DNA of 64,000 nt, from NCBI RefSeq assembly GCF_016900775.1, contig NZ_JACJKN010000001.1, positions 186,001-250,000 on the forward strand, in the 5' to 3' direction. This stretch comes from Olsenella uli. GTDB taxonomy: Bacteria > Actinomycetota > Coriobacteriia > Coriobacteriales > Atopobiaceae. Positions 6,760 to 33,665 of the stretch are shown here, one piece after another. A program made the position numbers and the translations under genes. The first letter of the stretch is position 1; every line of letters starts with the position of its first letter. Under the pieces are notes generated by a model. That model searched no databases. It saw only the letters and a program-made list of their open reading frames with translations, and had not been told where the DNA came from.

Positions 6760-8739
6760 ATGAACCTTGAAGCGATCCGAAAGAGGCTGCGGCGGGCCGC
6801 CCGCCTCATGCGCGTGAGCGAGATGGGCGAGCGGCTGCACGGCCGCGACCTCTCCGTTCTTCTCGCCCGCGCGGACGAGGTCATGGCGGACACCTACACC
6901 TTCTCCAAAACGTGGGACATGGAGCGCTGCCGCGTGCCCTTCACGCTGCCGGCCGGCGCCTATGACTGGAACGTCGTCAACAACGACGACGAAGAGTGGT
7001 GCTTCATGCTCAACCGCATGGACTACCTCGAGGACCTGGCGCTCGCCTCTCTGGTGACGGGGGACGAGAAGTACGCGCGCAAGGCAGCCGAGCTCATCGG
7101 CTCCTGGGTGGACGCGCACCCCACGATCGTGCCCGAGCTCTCCACGCGCACGCTCGACACCGGCATCCGCATCCGCTCCATGGTGTGCGTGCTGCCCGCG
7201 CTGGACGCCGTTGGCGTCCTTGCGGACGAGCTGCTGGAGAAGACGGTCGCGAGCGTGCGCGACCAGATCGCGTCGCTGCGCGAGCGCTACCTCCCCAAGT
7301 ACGAGACCAGCAACTGGGGCAGCATCCAGACGCTCGCCATCCTCACGGTCCTGGCCACGCTCGAGGACGACCCCGCTTCCGACCCCGACTGGGCCTGGGC
7401 GGCCGGGCGCGCCGAGTCCCAGATGGCCGCGCAGGTCTACCCTGACGGCATCGACTGGGAGCAGTCCACGATGTACCACGTCGAGGTGCTGCTGTACTCG
7501 CTCCGCGCCCTCCACGTGCTGGAGGCGCAGGGCGCCCCGGTCCCGCGTGGGCTGCGCGGTGCGGCAGAGCGGCTCTCCCGCGCCCTTGCGGCGCAGATGA
7601 TGCCCAACGGCTGTATCGACGCCCAGGGCGACTCCGACCGCACGGACGTCCGGGGCCTCATGGCCCTCTGCGCGGGCGTGCTCGGTGACACGGCGCTCGC
7701 CGTGGCGTCCGGCCGCACGGAGCTCGATCCGGGCGACGTCTTTGCCTTTGGCTGCGACGTCGAGGACGCCCTCGTGGCGTGCGCGGGCGAGAAGGGCGCC
7801 GAGCTGCCGCTCGTCTTTGACGGCATGGACTCCGGCCTCTTTGTGGCCCGCTCCTCATGGGATGCGGACGCCAACCTCACCGAGTTCTCCTCCGGGCCCC
7901 TGGGCTCTGGCCACGGGCACTCGGACAACCTGCACGTGACCGCCGTCTATCATGGCGCGCCCGTGCTTGTTGACGGCGGGCGCTACACCTACCGCGAGGA
8001 CTCGCCGGAGCGGCCGTACCTCAAGGGGCCGCTCGCCCACAACGTGCCGCTGCTGGACGGCCGCTCGAGCTGCGCGCCCAAGGGCAGCTGGGGGTACTCC
8101 GACTTTGGCTACCCGCTCAAGACCTACGCCCGTCACGCGGATGGCGCCCACTACTTCGAGGGTGCTCTCGTGGGGCACGACCCGATGCACGTGCTCGTGC
8201 GCAAGCTCGTGGCGCTGGACTGCGGCATCTGGGTCTGCGCGGACGAGGCCCTGGCCGAGGGGAAGCACGAGCTGGTCTCGCGGTTCCACCTCGATCCCGA
8301 GGCGCGCGTGGAGGCTGCGGAGGGCGGCTGCCGCGTCATCTGCCCGGCGGGCGAGCTGACGCTCGGCTCCACGGGCGCGCTGACGCTCGGCTCCGAGCAG
8401 ATCTCGCTCGACTACAATGCCCTGTCCGACGCCGCCCTCGTCGAGGCGCGCGCCGCGGTTTCCGAGAGGGGTGGCCAGCTCTGGTGGCTCGCCCCGGCGG
8501 ACGTGCGCGTGAGTCCCGCCCAGGTGCTCCGCGGCGGCTCCGAGCCCGTGGACCCGGCGCTTGCCGAGGCCGTGCGCTTTGAGCTTCCCGGCGGGGAGTT
8601 CTACACCGTGGCGTTCTTCCACGGTGAGGTCTACACCGGCGTGAAGGCGTTCGCCCTCGAGGGCGTCTCCTTCCACGCTAAGGCCGTCGTCGTCCACGGC
8701 GCGGGCGACGCGCGCGACCTCACCGTCCTGCGCGCCTAG
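6760..8739 (+). CDS. Heparinase II/III-family polysaccharide lyase
   Basis: A 659-residue protein starting 12 bp after the PL8 gene. The N-terminal half is an alpha/alpha toroid with YETSNWGSIQTLAI near 185; the C-terminal half has the heparinase II/III beta-sandwich signature HGHSDNLHV near 387 and DGGRYTY. There is no signal peptide, so it probably acts in the cytoplasm on oligosaccharides brought in by the PTS, or is exported by an unseen route. Families PL12, PL15, PL21 and PL33 share this fold; PL33-like action on hyaluronan or chondroitin oligosaccharides fits the neighbours but cannot be fixed from sequence alone. Confidence 0.82.
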   Translation: MNLEAIRKRLRRAARLMRVSEMGERLHGRDLSVLLARADEVMADTYTFSKTWDMERCRVPFTLPAGAYDWNVVNNDDEEWCFMLNRMDYLEDLALASLVTGDEKYARKAAELIGSWVDAHPTIVPELSTRTLDTGIRIRSMVCVLPALDAVGVLADELLEKTVASVRDQIASLRERYLPKYETSNWGSIQTLAILTVLATLEDDPASDPDWAWAAGRAESQMAAQVYPDGIDWEQSTMYHVEVLLYSLRALHVLEAQGAPVPRGLRGAAERLSRALAAQMMPNGCIDAQGDSDRTDVRGLMALCAGVLGDTALAVASGRTELDPGDVFAFGCDVEDALVACAGEKGAELPLVFDGMDSGLFVARSSWDADANLTEFSSGPLGSGHGHSDNLHVTAVYHGAPVLVDGGRYTYREDSPERPYLKGPLAHNVPLLDGRSSCAPKGSWGYSDFGYPLKTYARHADGAHYFEGALVGHDPMHVLVRKLVALDCGIWVCADEALAEGKHELVSRFHLDPEARVEAAEGGCRVICPAGELTLGSTGALTLGSEQISLDYNALSDAALVEARAAVSERGGQLWWLAPADVRVSPAQVLRGGSEPVDPALAEAVRFELPGGEFYTVAFFHGEVYTGVKAFALEGVSFHAKAVVVHGAGDARDLTVLRA

Positions 8740-8747
8740 GTGTTAGT

Positions 8748-8857
8748 TGTGTTAGTTGGGGACAGTCCCCAACTAACACACACTTTTGATGAAGCGGGCC
8801 ACCGAGAGGAACCTCGGCGGCCCGCTCTGTTAATTGGGGACTGTCCCCAACTAACAG
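8748..8857. repeat. REP pair around a hairpin (GGGGACNGTCCCC family)
   Basis: Two related palindromes, 8748-8780 (TGTTAGTTGGGGAC arm) and 8827-8857 (TGTTAATTGGGGAC arm), flank a GC-rich hairpin at about 8791-8824. The set separates two convergent operons and probably ends both transcripts. The right palindrome contains the stop codon of the minus-strand gene (8851-8853). The same core recurs at 50021, 50061 and 63460. Confidence 0.8.
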
Positions 8858-9651
8858 GTCAGGGCGCCCATGACGATGAGCTGGGTGAGGGCGGGGAACT
8901 CCGCCGGGTCATCGGCCTTCACCATGTCGGAGAGGCGGATCCACTCGATGTCGCGGCCGCCCTCGCCGAGGGAGAAGCGCTGGGGGACGCCCGTCTTCTC
9001 CAGGTGCACGGTGAGCTCGAATCCGTCCGAGCAGGTGAGCTTTGCCTGCTCCCACCAGCTGTCGTGTGGGAAGTCCGCGCGCAGGACGAGCATGGCCTCC
9101 TCGGCGTGGACCGGCCGCCCAAAGTCCACCTGGAGCCAGGCGTCGTCACGCCCGTTGATGCCCCAGGACTCGTAGGGCCAGCGTCCGTGGTGGATGCTCT
9201 GCCAGGTGCCGTCGATCGCGTTGCGGGCGATGAAGCGCGGGTTGGTGGCACCGGAGTTGGTCGTGGCATGCGGGTAGACGCCCGTGGTGCCCTCGAGGTC
9301 ATGCGAGTTGAGGGCGAGGTTTCGCCAGGTGGCGCGCTCGCGGGGGTCGAGTACGCGCGCATAGCCCCAGTGGGTGTCGCCGAGGAAGGCGTGGCTGGGG
9401 TACGAGTCGCGGGCGGACTCGAAGGGAATCGGGAACTCGAGGCGTCCCTCGGTCAGATAGACAACGCTCGGGGGCAGGGACTCGTCGAGCATGACCTCGA
9501 GCTCCACGTTCTTCTCGTCCGAGGTGAGGACGAGGACGTCGCCGGGCTGATATTCGGCATAGCGGGTGTCGAGCTGGACAAGGTCCTCGCCGGTCGAGGT
9601 TCCGCGCGCGACGCCGTCGGCGCCGACGAGGCTGAGGGTGAGCTGGGGCAT
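8851..9651 (-). CDS. Cytosolic discoidin-like protein of the glycosaminoglycan locus
   Basis: A 266-residue protein of unknown function, start set by AAAGGAG before the ATG at 9651. The N-terminal 100 residues are beta-rich with no clear family. The rest resembles a discoidin / F5-8 type C fold: NPRFIARNAIDG, then DAWLQVDFGRP and a C-terminal SDGFELTVHLEKT strand. There is no signal peptide, unlike most carbohydrate-binding discoidin proteins. It sits 79 bp downstream of kduD under the same operator, so it likely works in uronate metabolism. One possibility, offered as inference, is the isomerase step that feeds KduD, since no kduI or dhuI gene is present in the window. A sugar-binding or accessory role is equally open. 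Confidence 0.7.
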   Translation of the reverse strand: MPQLTLSLVGADGVARGTSTGEDLVQLDTRYAEYQPGDVLVLTSDEKNVELEVMLDESLPPSVVYLTEGRLEFPIPFESARDSYPSHAFLGDTHWGYARVLDPRERATWRNLALNSHDLEGTTGVYPHATTNSGATNPRFIARNAIDGTWQSIHHGRWPYESWGINGRDDAWLQVDFGRPVHAEEAMLVLRADFPHDSWWEQAKLTCSDGFELTVHLEKTGVPQRFSLGEGGRDIEWIRLSDMVKADDPAEFPALTQLIVMGALTC

Positions 9652-9730
9652 GGGTGCTCCTTTCGCTATGAAAAACCGCAGGCCGCTCGTGGAGCGAACC
9701 TGCGGCGCAAGGGGACGGATGGCGCGCTGC

Positions 9731-10564
9731 CTACTGCGGCTGCTTGCCGATGTAGGCGAGGATGCCGCCGTCGACGTAGACGACCTGGCCGTTGACGAAG
9801 TTGGAGGCGTCGGAGGCCAGGAAGACCGCGGTGCCCATGAGGTCGATCGGGGTGCCCCAGCGGGCGGCCGGCGTCTTGGCGACGATGAACTGGTCGAACG
9901 GGTGACGGGAGCCGTCGGGCTGGACCTCGCGTAGCGGCGCGGTCTGCGGGGTGGCGATGTAGCCCGGCCCGATGCCGTTGCACTGGATGTTGTGCTCGCC
10001 GAACTCGGAGCAGATGTTGCGGGTGAGCATCTTGAGGCCACCCTTGGCGGCGGCGTAGCCGGCGACGGTCTCGCGGCCGAGCTCGCTCATCATGGAGCAG
10101 ATGTTGATGATCTTGCCGTGGCCCTTCTCGATCATGCCGGGCAGGACCGCCTTGGAGACGATGAAGGGGGCGTTGAGGTCAACGTCCACGACCTGGCGGA
10201 AGTCCTCGGCGCTCATCTCGAGCATGGGGATGCGCTTGATGATGCCGGCGTTGTTGACGAGGATGTCCGGCGTGGTGCCGAAGTCGGCCTTGATGTCGGC
10301 GATAAGCTGCTCGACCTGGTCGACCTTGGTGACGTCGGCCACGTAGCCCTTGGCCTCGATGCCCTCGGCGGCGTAGGCCTTCTCGCCCATCTCGGCCTTC
10401 TCGGCGTTGAGGTCGTTGAAGGCGATCTTGGCGCCGGCCTTGGCGAGCGCGGTGGCGATGGCGAAGCCGATGCCGTAGGAGGCGCCGGTGACCAGGGCGA
10501 CCTTGCCGTCGAGGCGGAAGCTGTCCATGCTGAACGTGCTGGGATCTGCGTACTGCTCTGCCAT
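9731..10564 (-). CDS. kduD: 2-dehydro-3-deoxy-D-gluconate 5-dehydrogenase, SDR family
   Basis: A 277-residue classical short-chain dehydrogenase. It reduces 3-deoxy-D-glycero-2,5-hexodiulosonate to 2-keto-3-deoxygluconate, the step after isomerisation of the unsaturated uronate product of Ugl. Visible motifs: cofactor site TGASYGIG (26-33), NNAG (104-107), and Tyr170/Lys174 in YAAAK. Gluconate 5-dehydrogenase belongs to the same family, but the Ugl/PL8 context favours the uronate role (KduD or streptococcal DhuD equivalent). Transcription starts from a strong promoter with the AAACCGGTTT operator in its spacer. Confidence 0.88.
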   Translation of the reverse strand: MAEQYADPSTFSMDSFRLDGKVALVTGASYGIGFAIATALAKAGAKIAFNDLNAEKAEMGEKAYAAEGIEAKGYVADVTKVDQVEQLIADIKADFGTTPDILVNNAGIIKRIPMLEMSAEDFRQVVDVDLNAPFIVSKAVLPGMIEKGHGKIINICSMMSELGRETVAGYAAAKGGLKMLTRNICSEFGEHNIQCNGIGPGYIATPQTAPLREVQPDGSRHPFDQFIVAKTPAARWGTPIDLMGTAVFLASDASNFVNGQVVYVDGGILAYIGKQPQ

Positions 10565-10600
10565 GTGTCCTCCTTGTTGGATGGCCGTTCGTTGAGTCTC

Positions 10601-10629
10601 AGTTAAGGACAGTAAACCGGTTTTGTCAA
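10601..10629 (-). promoter_or_regulatory. kduD promoter with LacI-type operator in the spacer
   Basis: On the minus strand, TTGACA (10629-10624), a 17-nt spacer and TTAACT (10606-10601) form a near-consensus promoter. The palindrome AAACCGGTTT (10614-10623) fills the spacer, so a bound repressor would block RNA polymerase. The core matches the operator before ugl at 14-27. Confidence 0.75.
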
Positions 10630-11203
10630 CAGTAAAGGCCTAGCGGTCTCCGCGAGCGGTTGAGTTCAAATAATCTCTACAGTTCTTCTGCATTCCTCAA
10701 GCTAATCGGCACATAAGGGCGAGGTAAACCAATTTGTCAGAAACTGCTCTCGCCGGCCGGCGGCGGGTCTGTGACGTGCCTGTGAGCAGGCGGTCGCGAA
10801 GATTTGACGGCAGGGTGGCCGTAAAGCTGCGTGCCGGTGAGCGGCATGGCCCCAGCATCATCCGCGTTTGTGGGTGGCCGATCTTCTTGAGAGTGATTTG
10901 GTGGGTGCCGCCATTGTGGAGGCTGGCAGCTGCTATGCCGGGGATCGTGACTCCACCGAGGGGCATCGCAGGACGCTCGACTGACGAGGGGTTCATGGGG
11001 CGCATGGCGGCCTGTCGTGACCCGCGCCGGTTTTCCTATATGAAGGAGTTGGGGATGGGCAATTGGCGCTACGCCCTCGTGTGCCTCAACAGTGGCGACA
11101 CCCACTTCCGGCCCGAGGATGCCGGTGCGCATGTGATGCCGTTCGCAGGGTAAGTCGGGCACTCCGACGTTTTGCATCGACTTGGGCCGACGCCCCCACC
11201 TTT
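10630..11203. other. Gene-free gap with one degenerate operator
   Basis: No coding region is supported here. Short open frames exist on both strands but overlap each other and lack ribosome sites and recognisable motifs. At 10724-10739, GTAAACCAATTTGTCA closely resembles the kduD operator (GTAAACCGGTTTTGTCA), 112 bp further out, and could be an auxiliary operator. The rest may be decayed coding sequence; a stretch near 10877-10985 reads with few stops in one frame but matches nothing I know. Confidence 0.4.
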
Positions 11204-11330
11204 CCGTTTCTAGGTGTTTTTTCGGGTCGCTTCGGAGTATTGCTTGAATCTCAGATTACGTTATCGCAGGTAAATCGCACGCGGTGGTCAAGAGCTACTT
11301 TGTAGTGACGAAAAGTAACACCTAGAAACG
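11204..11330. repeat. Inverted-repeat element A (CGTTTCTAGGTGTT family)
   Basis: The element begins with CCGTTTCTAGGTGTTTTTT (11204-11222) and ends with the inverted AACACCTAGAAACG (11317-11330), about 127 bp in all. A second element with the same ends lies at 12510-12636, so the two bracket the gene at 11524. The size and terminal repeats resemble a MITE. An RNA hairpin is the alternative. Confidence 0.7.
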
Positions 11331-11523
11331 TCACCTCTGCCTTCTGCGCCGCTCGCGGGCGGATGTTGCCGCTCAGCTCGTAAAAACGTGATTCTCTTAT
11401 GTGCTCGGAGTTCTTTTAGCCTTTCTACCTCAGACGTCAGCTTGGCGTCAGCTGACGGATAGGCCAGGGGGGGCGGTGCTTGGATACAGTCTTCCAACTA
11501 TTGGATGGCTGGAGGAGGCGCCT

Positions 11524-12489
11524 ATGTCACTGTTTCTGAGCCACGATTCTGCGCTGCGCTATTGGCTGACCAAAGGAGGGGACGAATGCGTTCCCGATGT
11601 CGCTTCCATTGGCAGCCTTGCTCAGGCGAGTGCCTCGGCGCGAGAGCTTGGCAAGGCGCTCCTCCCCATTGACTATTCGGAGGCCTGTCCTGTTCACCTG
11701 CTTGTTTGCGACCCTGCGAGTCTGCACTCCTCCGGCTTGGTGATACCCCACCTATGGACTGGCCCCGTGCCCGACGGCTCCTTTAGCGAGCTTTCTGGAG
11801 CAAACTATGTGAGCGCGCCGGAATTTACCTTCGTGCAGGCTGCAGCAAAGAGGGACCTAATCGCGACTCTTGAGATAGGACTCTATCTCTGCGGGGTTTT
11901 TTCGATTGGCGATGAGGGCTATGGTTACGTGGGGCAGCGGATGGCCCTGACAACGCCGGAGGAGCTTGCGAGCTTTATTGGCAGGACGGCGGGCGCATAT
12001 GGAGTGAAGAAGGCTCGCGCCTCGTTGCGCTATGTGCTTGCCCGGGCTGCATCTCCCATGGAGGTGCTGCTCATTCTTGCCTTTGTGCTTCCGCCCCGCT
12101 TGGGCGGCTGGGGGTTTCCCAGGGTTGTCCCCAACGAGCGGATTGATGTGGACAAAAGGCTGCAAGAGGTGGCAGGGGCCGATCATTTTGTCGGAGACGT
12201 CTATATTCCCTTCGTCAGGGGAGACATGGAATATGACAGCGAGGAGTTCCGCACGGGACGCTGGCGTGCCGACCATACCCAAGCACGGCGAAACATTCTT
12301 GAGGTGATGGGCGTCAAGACCATGTCGGCCACCTGGCACCAGATTGATACGTTTGAGAAATTTAAGACATTCATCTGGATGGTTAAGGAGCGCTTTGGAA
12401 TTCCCCATCGTGACTACACCCCTGAGGAGACCATGGCACAGATCTCCCTCTATGAGCGCCTGACAGACTTTCGGCGAAGGCTCTTTTGA
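11524..12489 (+). CDS. AbiEi-like protein with a PD-(D/E)XK nuclease-like C-terminus
   Basis: A 321-residue protein; the ATG follows GGAGGAGG, so the longer upstream frame is not used. Residues 55-150 (VHLLVCDPASLHSSG, then a SAPEFTFVQAA segment) resemble the C-terminal part of AbiEi-type antitoxin/regulators. Residues 215-290 contain DVYIPF, MEYDSEEF and a GVKTMSATW strand, the layout of DUF559/Vsr-like endonuclease folds (D, then E-x-D). Base use is clearly less GC-rich than in neighbours, and inverted-repeat elements stand on both sides, which suggests transfer. A defence or toxin role is inference. No AbiEii-type partner is adjacent. Confidence 0.6.
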   Translation: MSLFLSHDSALRYWLTKGGDECVPDVASIGSLAQASASARELGKALLPIDYSEACPVHLLVCDPASLHSSGLVIPHLWTGPVPDGSFSELSGANYVSAPEFTFVQAAAKRDLIATLEIGLYLCGVFSIGDEGYGYVGQRMALTTPEELASFIGRTAGAYGVKKARASLRYVLARAASPMEVLLILAFVLPPRLGGWGFPRVVPNERIDVDKRLQEVAGADHFVGDVYIPFVRGDMEYDSEEFRTGRWRADHTQARRNILEVMGVKTMSATWHQIDTFEKFKTFIWMVKERFGIPHRDYTPEETMAQISLYERLTDFRRRLF

Positions 12490-12509
12490 ATGCGCTTTTG
12501 CTGGGTCTT

Positions 12510-12636
12510 CCGTTTCTAGGTGTTTTTTGAGGGATGGGGCGAGTAGCCAGGATACGGCCAGATCCTTGACCTGCTCGTTTGCCCCTCCATGTGTGGGCGC
12601 TACTGTGACTTCCGCCGAAAAAACACCTAGAAACGG
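12510..12636. repeat. Inverted-repeat element B (CGTTTCTAGGTGTT family)
   Basis: CCGTTTCTAGGTGTTTTTT at 12510-12528 and its exact inverse at 12618-12636 enclose about 90 bp. The arms are a perfect 19-bp match and equal the left end of element A. It lies between the AbiEi-like gene and the end of the helicase gene and could also act as a bidirectional terminator. Confidence 0.75.
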
Positions 12637-12661
12637 AAAACGATCCTGTTATGTCCAACCG

Positions 12662-15253
12662 CTACTCGTCGTCCACGAAGCCCACGCGGTAGGCGGAGAA
12701 CACCACGGCGCCCTCGTCCTGCGTGGCGTCGAGGTCCACGTCTCCCCAGATGCCGAAGTCGCGGTCGTCGTCGGAGTCGCGGAACGTCTGGTGGACGTGC
12801 CACACGTGTGCCGACTTCTCATCCTTCTCGTCAATCGAGAGGTATGCGGCGCTGCGGGCGTCCGCGTCCAGCAGGATCTCCTCGTGCTCCTCGAAGAAGC
12901 GGTCGAGCGCGCGCCGCCACACGGGAGCGCGCCAGCCCCACTCGGCGTCGAGCTTGCCGAGCTCGTCGGTCGCCTCGTGCGCCGCCAGCCGTACGCGGGC
13001 GAAGAGCGCGTTTCGCACGAGCAGCGTGAGGCCGCGGCGGTCGCGTACGACCTCCTCGGCCGCGGGCGGGGCGGCATCGAGGCCCTCCGAGGAGCCCTCC
13101 CCGGCGGCCGCCCACTCGTCCACGAGCGAGGAGTCCACCGTGCGCACCACCAGGCCCAGCCACGCGATGATGTCGCGCAGGCGCTCGTCGCGCTTCTCGA
13201 GCGGCACGGTGCGGTCGAGGGCGCGGAACGCCTCGGAGAGGTAGCGCAGGAGGAGCCCCTCGGAGCGGGCCACGTTGTAGCGGCCCACGTACTCCTTGAA
13301 GTCGCTCGCGGTCTCCACCATGTCGCGCAGGACGGACTTGGGCGAGAGCGCAAAGTCGCGCGCCCACGGCACCTGCTCGCAGTACTGCTCGAAGGCGGGC
13401 TCCAGCAGCTCCTCGAGCGGCTTGGGGTAGGTGACCTCCTGCAGGCGCTCCATGCGCTCGTCGTAGTCTATGCCCTCGGCCTTCATCTCGCTCATCGCGC
13501 GGTCGCGCGCCACGCGCTGCTGCGCGCGCAGGATCTGCCAGGGGTCCTCGAGCGTGGCCTCGGCCATGGAGATGACGTCGAGCGCATAGGTATCCGACTC
13601 CGGGTCCAGGAGCTCGAGCGCCGCCAGTAGGAACGGCGAGAGCGGCTGGTCCAGCGCAAAGTCGTCCGGAAGGTCCACGGTCGTGCTCCACGAGACCCCC
13701 CCGTCCGGGCCCTCCTCGCGCGTGACCACGCCCGCGTCCTGCAGCGTGGCAAAGATCTCGTCTGCGCGGGTGGCGAGCGCGGCCTTCTCCTCGGCGGGCT
13801 GGGCGGACTCCTCCACGAGCGCGTGGACGCGCGCCCAGGCGTCCCCGCCCTGCTCCACCTCGGCAAGCACCATCGAGTGCGTGACCTTCATGCGCGGGCG
13901 CAGCGGCTCCGGCACGGCGGCGATCAGCCGCTCGAAGGTCTGCTTGTTCCAGCCCACAAAGCCCTCGGGGGGCTTCTTGGTCTTGATCTTGCGCGCCTTC
14001 TTGGGGTCGCCACCCGCCTTGCGCAGGGCCCGGGCGTTCTCGATGTCGTACTCGGTGGCCTCGGCGATGACGTGGCCCTCGGTGTCAAAGCCGGCGCGCC
14101 CGGCGCGGCCGACGATCTGGTGGAACTCGCGCGCGTTGAGGTGGCGCATGCGCCGGCCGTCAAACTTGGAGAGCGCGGTGAGCACCACGGTGTGAATGGG
14201 CACGTTGATGCCCACGCCGAGCGTGTCCGTGCCGCAGATGACCGGCAGCAGGCCCTGCTGCGCGAGCTTCTCCACGAGCAGGCGGTAGCGCGGCAGCATG
14301 CCCGCGTGGTGCACGCCCACGCCGCAGCCCAGGAGGCGCTGGAGCGTCTTGCCAAAGGTCGTGGTGAAGCGCGTGCCCTTGATGGCCTCCTTCACGGCCT
14401 CGCGCTGCTCCTTGGTGGAGACGCCGTAGCTGGCCAGGCTCTGCGCGCTCGTGAGGGCCGCGTCCTGCGAGAAGTGCACGACGTAGAGCGGCGCCTCGCC
14501 GGCGCGCAGCGCCAGCTCGACGGTGCCCTCGAGCGCCGTGTCAACGAACTCGTAGGAGAGCGGCACCGGGCGCGGGGCGTCTGCGATGGTGTCCACGGTG
14601 CGCCCGCCGGTATGCTCGGAGAGCGACTCCGCGATGGCGGTGGTGTCCCCCAGCGTGGCGCTCATGAGCAGGAACTGCGTGTGGGGGAGCGTGAGCAGCG
14701 GCACCTGCCAGGCCCAGCCGCGGTCCGGGTCCGCGTAGAAGTGGAACTCGTCCATGGCCACGCAGCCCACGTCGCACTTCTCGCCCTCGCGCAGCGCCTG
14801 GTTGGCGAGGATCTCCGCGGTGCAGCAGATAATGGGCGCCTCCGCGTTGATGGCCGCGTCGCCAGTGATCATGCCCACGTTCTCGCGGCCGAAGAGCTCG
14901 ACGAGGTCAAAGAACTTCTCGCTCACCAGCGCCTTGATGGGGGCGGTGTAGTAGGCGCGCCTATCCGTGCAGACGCTCATGAAGCACATGCCCAGCGCCA
15001 CCATGGACTTGCCCGACCCCGTGGGCGTGCCCAGGATCAGGTGGTCTCCCGCCGCAAGCGACAGCAGGGCCTCCTCCTGGTGCGGCCAGAGCTCGATCCC
15101 GCGCGACTCCACCCAGCCGAGGAAGAGGTCGAGCGCCTCCTCGGCGGGGATGTTGGGATAGGTCTCCTCGTCCGGCCAGGGGATGAGGCGTCCCAGCGAC
15201 CCGGGGGCGTTGGGCCCCTCGTCGACGGACTCGGATGTGGGGAATGCGGGCAT
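12662..15253 (-). CDS. Ski2/HelY-like DEAD/DEAH-box RNA helicase (DUF3516)
   Basis: An 863-residue helicase; the start at 15253 has GAGGAGG before it, and the long frame upstream of it is not coding. Motifs: Walker A GTPTGSGKS (about residues 68-76), DEFH (motif II) near 157, SATLGD (motif III), and the second RecA domain with GVGINVPIHTV and QIVGRAGRAG. The C-terminal 350 residues form the actinobacterial DUF3516 region. Members resemble mycobacterial HelY and the exosome-associated Mtr4/Ski2 helicases and probably unwind RNA. It is monocistronic. Confidence 0.88.
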   Translation of the reverse strand: MPAFPTSESVDEGPNAPGSLGRLIPWPDEETYPNIPAEEALDLFLGWVESRGIELWPHQEEALLSLAAGDHLILGTPTGSGKSMVALGMCFMSVCTDRRAYYTAPIKALVSEKFFDLVELFGRENVGMITGDAAINAEAPIICCTAEILANQALREGEKCDVGCVAMDEFHFYADPDRGWAWQVPLLTLPHTQFLLMSATLGDTTAIAESLSEHTGGRTVDTIADAPRPVPLSYEFVDTALEGTVELALRAGEAPLYVVHFSQDAALTSAQSLASYGVSTKEQREAVKEAIKGTRFTTTFGKTLQRLLGCGVGVHHAGMLPRYRLLVEKLAQQGLLPVICGTDTLGVGINVPIHTVVLTALSKFDGRRMRHLNAREFHQIVGRAGRAGFDTEGHVIAEATEYDIENARALRKAGGDPKKARKIKTKKPPEGFVGWNKQTFERLIAAVPEPLRPRMKVTHSMVLAEVEQGGDAWARVHALVEESAQPAEEKAALATRADEIFATLQDAGVVTREEGPDGGVSWSTTVDLPDDFALDQPLSPFLLAALELLDPESDTYALDVISMAEATLEDPWQILRAQQRVARDRAMSEMKAEGIDYDERMERLQEVTYPKPLEELLEPAFEQYCEQVPWARDFALSPKSVLRDMVETASDFKEYVGRYNVARSEGLLLRYLSEAFRALDRTVPLEKRDERLRDIIAWLGLVVRTVDSSLVDEWAAAGEGSSEGLDAAPPAAEEVVRDRRGLTLLVRNALFARVRLAAHEATDELGKLDAEWGWRAPVWRRALDRFFEEHEEILLDADARSAAYLSIDEKDEKSAHVWHVHQTFRDSDDDRDFGIWGDVDLDATQDEGAVVFSAYRVGFVDDE

Positions 15254-33390: not shown

Positions 33391-33665
33391 GGTTAGGAAA
33401 TGCCGGTCGTTGCTGGGATTCGGTAGAGGTTGGTTAGAAAAGCGGGGTCGTTGCGGGCGAGCTGCGCCGACCGCTTGGAAAACGGCGGTCGTTGCGCCGC
33501 ACTGGGCCGTTCTTCTCGCCATGGCGAGAAGAACGCGCAGCTGGCGAATGGGCTTGCATGGGGAGAGGCGGTTCTGCGCCGCGCGCGGGCCCCCGGGTCC
33601 TGCAGCGGCTGCGATTCTCTAACGGGCCTGCGTGTCGTGGGCGCAACGACCGCGATTCCCTAACC
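33391..33665. repeat. Repeat cluster with a 28-bp perfect palindrome
   Basis: The 632-bp gap between the aldolase and a DeoR gene holds three direct GGTCGTTGC-type repeats (33391-33414, 33432-33455, 33475-33496), each preceded by GGTTAG/TTGGAAAA-like bases, and two inverted ones (33608-33623, 33642-33665). A perfect palindrome of CGTTCTTCTCGCCA arms lies at 33508-33535. The GGCGAGAAGAACG arm recurs at 40086 and 60575. No gene is supported in the gap. Confidence 0.65.

Follow-up and report, generated by a model that had tools for sequence, protein, structure and literature searches.

Here we describe a gene for a 321-aa protein, P0001, which is framed by two elements with the same ends, facing each other, in a 64,000-nucleotide stretch of Olsenella uli DNA (the window) belonging to the draft genome G000 (2.48 Mb, 66 contigs). 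Together with the roughly 129-bp elements exemplified by the framing copies, P0001 may constitute one co-evolving system, similar to REPIN-RAYT but built on an unrelated protein, and we give such a mechanism roughly even chances. The closest named relatives of the gene are found in Olsenella, Atopobium, Atopobiaceae, Thermophilibacter and Tractidigestivibacter records, and a literature search of partial coverage returned no account that we recognised of this gene-element system.

The first element (130 bp, 11203..11332, forward strand) runs from its left arm with the T-tract, from 11203, to the end of its right arm at 11332, contains the AGTA motif and has its core, GCAGGTAAAT, at 11266-11275. 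The gene, an open reading frame at 11524..12489 on the forward strand, is followed by the second element (129 bp, 12509..12637, reverse strand), which has the opposite orientation, with its first base 19 bp past the P0001 stop codon and the complement of its core, ACCTGC, at 12569-12574. A covariance model matched the two elements at E 4.4e-18 and E 2.4e-23, respectively, values that have to be read with both elements being part of its training alignment. The 21-bp end TTCCGTTTCTAGGTGTTTTTT is present twice, at 11202-11222 and 12508-12528, and its inverted partners lie at 11317-11330 and 12622-12635; together with the model matches, these confirm the two elements with the same ends that a preliminary description of this DNA had placed around the gene. 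The 12-mer TTTCTAGGTGTT had 14 matches in the genome and its reversed control 0, so the repeat is not due to chance. The lower G+C content reported earlier for the gene region also held, at 56-59% across 11000-12749 (500-bp windows) versus 66-73% over 8000-10249 and 68-72% beyond 12750; the sequence just upstream, 10250-11249, is low as well (58-63%). By eye, the neighbours in the window resemble a DUF362-type remnant and a helicase, the former at 10734-11153, adjoining element 1, which we take to be what is left of a DUF362-type gene. The same locus in genome G098 holds a 340-aa open frame, without the nuclease gene and without both elements there.

P0001 is predicted to combine a part like the AbiEi C-terminal domain (residues 1-172) with a Vsr/EDxHD-like nuclease part (residues 176-294). 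The protein was aligned with 29 relatives (24-77% identity), and AlphaFold2 modelling of the whole of P0001 with that alignment gave a pLDDT of 91 and a pTM of 0.89. In the predicted structure, the best match of residues 176-294 is to I-Bth0305I, an EDxHD homing endonuclease (Z 9.9, rmsd 2.5 over 96 aligned residues), and NGO0050, which is Vsr-like (Z 9.5), Vsr (Z 7.5) and TnsA (Z 6.2) also match, as do two T. gondii mitoribosomal chains (Z 9.0 and 8.9); these residues are alike in fold to Vsr/I-Bth0305I/TnsA, yet only 8-13% identical in sequence. Foldseek with the P0001 model against the PDB returned nothing at E ≤ 0.001, the P0001 sequence matched no PDB sequence up to E 10, and the best PHROGs match was at E 0.28. 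P0001 itself had no profile match in Pfam, NCBIfam or PADLOC, and in the C-terminal part of a G000 paralogue weak nuclease matches were obtained to PF18741 (E 1.4e-4) and DUF559 (E 0.0019), both below the curated cut-offs; the profile check proposed at the outset gave no match for P0001 and weak ones for its paralogue. Within the nuclease-like part, E180, D225, E236, D238 and D250-H251 were invariant across 17 sequences; in 30 sequences E180, E236 and D238 were invariant and D225 was at least 90% conserved, the conserved set in P0001 being E180, D225, E236, D238, D250, H251 and R256. P0001 has the predicted fold and conserved acidic residues of a Vsr/EDxHD-like (PD-(D/E)XK) nuclease with putative cleavage activity. 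The dN/dS ratios of about 0.09, 0.10, 0.06 and 0.15 in four pairs of relatives indicate that P0001 is under purifying selection.

The N-terminal part, modelled alone (pLDDT 90.5), matched residues 67-195 of S. agalactiae AbiEi (6y8q; Z 8.1, rmsd 3.7 over 120) and residues 97-240 of Rv2827c (1zel; Z 5.3 over 118), with an apparently unrelated helical protein (Z 6.7) ranking between them. Set against the AbiEi layout of an N-terminal winged helix and a C-terminal domain (PMC7319586), residues 1-172 are predicted to correspond to the C-terminal half of the antitoxin, and P0001 differs from AbiEi antitoxins in that the winged helix is unmatched and a nuclease-like domain is fused in the same chain. 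Neither a winged helix nor another known DNA-reading domain was found in the P0001 models. The predicted structures thus support the earlier assignment of an AbiEi-like and nuclease-like protein, except that its AbiEi part is the C-terminal domain and not the DNA-binding winged helix.

Each element has inverted arms of 14-20 bp that terminate in a T-tract, an AGTA-like motif on either side at a fixed spacing, about 13 nt inward, from the T/A tract, and an asymmetric GCAGGT-like core near GCAAAAnnGCAGGTAGA that is common to the elements. The interiors of the two window copies are otherwise unlike by eye, and ten G000 copies, which had been found by their arms, showed 88% arm identity versus 29-33% for interior positions outside the motifs. 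Inspection by eye revealed no target-site duplication. An internal RNA fold was considered and no claim is made for it, because Rfam gave no match up to E 1 in window positions 11000-12800 and, among some thousands of interior column pairs, none stood out beyond the arms (best z 2.8); individual copies do allow hairpins to be drawn by eye. Among 79 model-found elements, 1086 of the 1106 arm pairs were Watson-Crick, 7 were G-U, 2 were A-C and 11 were other, counts that do not decide between RNA and DNA, and the absence of one-sided arm changes is partly built into sequences selected as inverted repeats.

The covariance model was trained on 44 elements picked by inverted repeats or by arm pattern, 28 of which were gene-adjacent copies first found by a plain inverted-repeat scan. 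It identified 15 distinct elements in G000 at E ≤ 0.01, comprising ten of CTAGG type, one of decayed CTAGG type, three of GTCGG type (with 13-15 of 16 arm bases paired) and one other. Thirteen of the 15 lie away from the gene, and the six of these that were viewed are all intergenic, one overlapping an rsmJ-like 3' end; judged by their translations, the genes beside dispersed copies are guaA/rsmJ, murI/degV, feoB/ZIP and xth. At G000:C46:74218-74521, between what we take to be feoB-like and ZIP-like genes, two elements of different arm types lie 45 bp apart. The preliminary description had also suggested a small mobile cassette with the repeats as its two ends; taken literally, this idea fails, since each repeat is an entire element, about 129 bp long, and the genome search placed the repeats mostly away from the gene.

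All 31 genomes of the genus had model matches (2-48 per genome, strands not collapsed). Across the family, where at most 24 candidates per genome were scored, 69 of 140 genomes had matches at E ≤ 1e-4, namely 30 of 31 in g1, eight of eight in g34 and 31 genomes in nine other genera with 1-13 matches each, mostly weaker. Homologues of P0001 of any degree occur in 131 of the 140 genomes, and close homologues (E < 1e-60) occur in the same two genera, g1 (23 of 31) and g34 (7 of 8). A full-length homologue (37% identical, E 3e-54) is present in G044 of genus g23, a genome absent among those listed with elements.

A homologue search yielded 31 loci, of which the 29 with an intact gene end were counted; L115, a distant paralogue without an element, and L114, a broken gene with one element on either side, were set aside. 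At 28 of the 29 intact loci an element starts 5-62 bp after the stop codon, and L087 has an upstream element only; this adjacency of elements and close gene extends over two genera. Ten of the 29, the top-listed full-length genes L085-L094, have an upstream element; none was found upstream in L095-L113. Element lists reaching to about E 3e-4 were used for homologue adjacency, and among the elements listed, two of the ten homologue places in the complete genome G112, both close homologues, and one of ten in G088 adjoin an element. G098, G085 and G107, which have no close gene, showed no homologue beside an element among those listed. Distant homologues do not adjoin elements, among those listed to about E 3e-4. 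At the helicase locus, ten complete loci without the gene there also lack the element; in an eleventh, that of G106, a contig end cuts the locus and the match is at E 0.0097. An apparent inversion of the gene between its elements relative to its neighbours was rejected because the compared loci had not been strand-oriented. Eight of the 31 genus genomes have no close gene, four with few element matches (G090 3, G100 11, G104 2, G106 2) and four with many (G085 35, G094 23, G098 27, G107 24), strands not being collapsed in these counts.

The arms that flank the gene differ widely by species, being CGTTTCTAGGTGTTTTTT in G000, CAGTTTTAGGCAGTTTG in G112 and G086, TTGTAGGTCGTTTTTT in G109, ACGGTTGGTGGCAGTTT in G117 and TCATTTGTAGGGTACTTTTT in G101. 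Dispersed elements were compared with these arms in 18 genomes, using 73 elements (60 from 17 genomes and 13 from G112) found by the model and not by arm pattern, which are the best-scoring among the matches listed and not a random sample. The arms of the gene in their own genome were matched by 44 of the 73 at at least 8 of 9 bases, versus 13.5% for the gene arms of other genomes, and 0 of 5000 label shuffles reached the observed mean. The comparison did not include the close-gene genomes G000 and G110, whose copies were found by arm pattern, nor G084, G089, G091, G092, G093, G099, G115, G116, G119 and G121. The remaining 29 elements mismatch the arms of the intact resident gene, including six of six in G097, three of four in G113 and eight of 13 in G112; four further mismatches, in G111, carry the arm type that brackets the broken gene L114 in that genome and were counted as mismatches. 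Agreement of arms within a genome is partly due to common descent, so that this comparison alone is no proof of a functional link. Recognition of the repeats by the protein is the option of the preliminary description that fits best, although the binding itself is a step that we infer; the dispersed repeats do not refute it, given the element after the gene at 28 of 29 loci and the 44 of 73 arm matches.

Changes of arm type at fixed sites were followed in G098, the genome most like G000 at guaA-rsmJ (91% over all 2030 bases); in the helicase gene G098, G107 and G113 are each 92% identical to G000. Four of five sampled G098 elements lie at the same sites as G000 elements, and the fifth has no counterpart among the G000 loci compared. 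At the four common sites both arms are of the CGATTGTCGG type (GTCGG) in G098 versus the CGTTTCTAGG type (CTAGG) in G000, with the exceptions in G000 of one arm CGGTTCTTGG and one arm CACTTCTAGG; the G098 arm is CGATTGTCGGTGATTTTT. Between the two genomes, the interiors at these sites are 79, 64, 58 and 69% identical and the 100-bp flanks 67-90%, and independent replacement of the element is possible at the least similar site. With arms alike, interiors diverged and arms switching in place, the arms are held or renewed independently of the rest of the element. At guaA-rsmJ, G110 and G109 also carry an element with arms like those of their own species. The usual gene locus of G098 is empty, and this genome has coherently changed, or retained, its arms with no close gene; the gene may have been lost recently or be hidden in an assembly gap, or else the arms are read by a different factor.

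Some of the elements have also been copied. Twenty within-genome pairs are similar enough for an alignment at E < 1e-12, most of them with 72-83% identity, which means that the members of these pairs were once copied. In 14 of the alignments the similarity ends about 11 bp or less from the element ends; six continue for at least 15 bp past them, including a G101 pair (97% over 186 bp) and the copies that frame the gene in G117 and G118 (99-100% over 158-159 bp). No G000 copies aligned with each other at E < 1e-12. The guaA-rsmJ site is occupied in five of 27 genomes, including a G084 copy with a different arm type, and is without an element of this type in 22; four further genus genomes were not comparable there. 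Where others have the element, the guaA-rsmJ gaps L251 and L255 contain an apparently unrelated long hairpin, CGAGTGTGC...GCACACTCG.

RAYT genes are framed by their repeats and act through HUH/Y1 chemistry, and REPs are extragenic, with counts per genome far above 15. The P0001 gene is similarly adjoined by its own repeat copies (at 28 of 29 intact loci), and inverted-repeat copies are likewise dispersed, with 15 in G000 and all six viewed being intergenic. Unlike REPs, the elements described here are about 129 bp long, with arms of 14-20 bp, a T-tract, AGTA motifs and a GCAGGT-like core. One account (PMC3116915) describes REPIN-RAYT systems as made up of short inverted-repeat elements that are non-autonomous and scattered through the genome, with a distinctive gene for each element family, the RAYTs being single copy and derived from an IS200-like ancestor. 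P0001 differs in its predicted AbiEi-like and Vsr/EDxHD-like parts; an IS200-like (HUH/Y1) fold is not among the matches of its model, and the two predicted domains leave little room for one. By analogy, the system would thus work like REPIN-RAYT and would not be a member of it. P0001 would recognise the element arms, its nuclease part would nick or cut there, and this would initiate the copying of elements into new positions, their repair with one another as templates, or both. The arms within a genome would thus keep matching the resident protein even as the interiors diverge, and the gene would not leave its conserved loci, where its own elements frame or follow it in the way that REPs do a RAYT gene.

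The elements might instead be functional binding sites selected in place, serving chromosome organisation, transcript ends or local regulation, and rarely or never mobilised by P0001 or another binder. This would accommodate arms rewritten in place at common sites, conserved arms around nearly random interiors, as expected under selection, and the persistence of elements in G085, G098 and G107 without a close gene; the binding of another protein could also lie behind the shared arm changes. On the other side, the neighbouring genes have no evident theme, only five of 27 genomes have an element at the one site that was compared throughout the genus, the 20 closely aligned pairs were once copied, and the putative catalytic residues of P0001 are conserved. 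We regard selection in place as unlikely. It is the genomes rich in elements but lacking a close gene (G085, G094, G098, G107) that leave it at this level and hold the REPIN-RAYT-like mechanism to even odds.

That the elements are ordinary MITEs of an unrelated transposase, with P0001 a passenger framed by accident, is very unlikely. MITEs and ERIC/NEMIS-type elements measure about 100-400 bp and have terminal inverted repeats, according to the same account (PMC3116915). The present elements resemble them in size, terminal repeats and intergenic position, and the arms of 29 of 73 dispersed copies are unlike those of the intact resident gene. They differ in adjoining a nuclease-like gene with matching arms, an element following the close gene at 28 of 29 intact loci, and in the concerted evolution of their arms: gene-adjacent arms differ by species yet often agree with dispersed copies, and a dead MITE offers no reason for concerted changes in place at four sites. 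We know of no parent transposon for these elements.

A toxin-antitoxin or abortive-infection locus, in which a single protein joining AbiEi-like and nuclease parts would regulate its own gene through the inverted repeats on either side, would agree with the AbiEi-like N-terminal part and with the binding of promoter inverted repeats by autoregulating AbiEi proteins (PMC7319586), but is very unlikely, as the AbiEi winged-helix part is unmatched in P0001, the constant element sits past the stop codon with none found upstream in L095-L113, 13 of 15 G000 copies are elsewhere in the genome, and P0001 belongs to no PADLOC family. No adjacent nucleotidyltransferase gene, as in AbiEi type IV systems, was noticed by eye among the window neighbours. 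The defence role proposed earlier found no backing in PADLOC, where P0001 has no family and 17 homologues gave only PglZ in two, at a best E of 0.011.

Other repeats were observed near paralogues. A second case of a gene framed by elements, which speaks for the REPIN-RAYT-like reading, is the paralogue L075 (G000:C1:68744-70053), with two copies of another palindromic element type, TCGCACCTAGT, of 77 bp each as delimited by pattern; this pattern has two copies in G000, five in G110, four in G103 and one in G091, and is absent from the other 27 genus genomes. By eye, the G000 paralogues L072, L073, L076, L079, L080 and L081 have flanking inverted repeats, e.g. GGGGTTATGGCAG and GGCCGCACTCGCG. 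The 9-mer TTCTTCTCG / CGAGAAGAA, often seen as GCGAGAAGAAC, occurs 26 times in the window (e.g. at 33510-33533) versus 0.41 expected from shuffles. It is likewise found close to several paralogue genes, and the excess may be due in part to codon use. Its inclusion in the system was dropped because it is common throughout the window.

More tentatively, and with less confidence than we attach to the REPIN-RAYT-like mechanism itself, it is possible that AbiEi-CTD/Vsr-like nucleases form a superfamily in the Atopobiaceae, and perhaps throughout the Coriobacteriia, with palindromic elements private to every paralogue, and that nuclease-driven gene conversion limited to the arms switches the recognition sequence of a whole element population in step with its protein. 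Under this wider reading, REPIN-like sequence populations would have evolved independently a second time, as a class of their own, and their recognition code would be readable from natural protein/arm pairs. To our knowledge, REPIN-RAYT is the main known instance in which populations of short bacterial sequences are tied to one gene that is itself non-mobile. An unrelated protein with the same layout would show that the arrangement arose more than once, and the reasons for its persistence could be tested independently. The coordinated arm switch at common sites would be a natural record of a recognition sequence changing genome-wide, and with many arm types and their proteins available, a specificity code can be tested directly.
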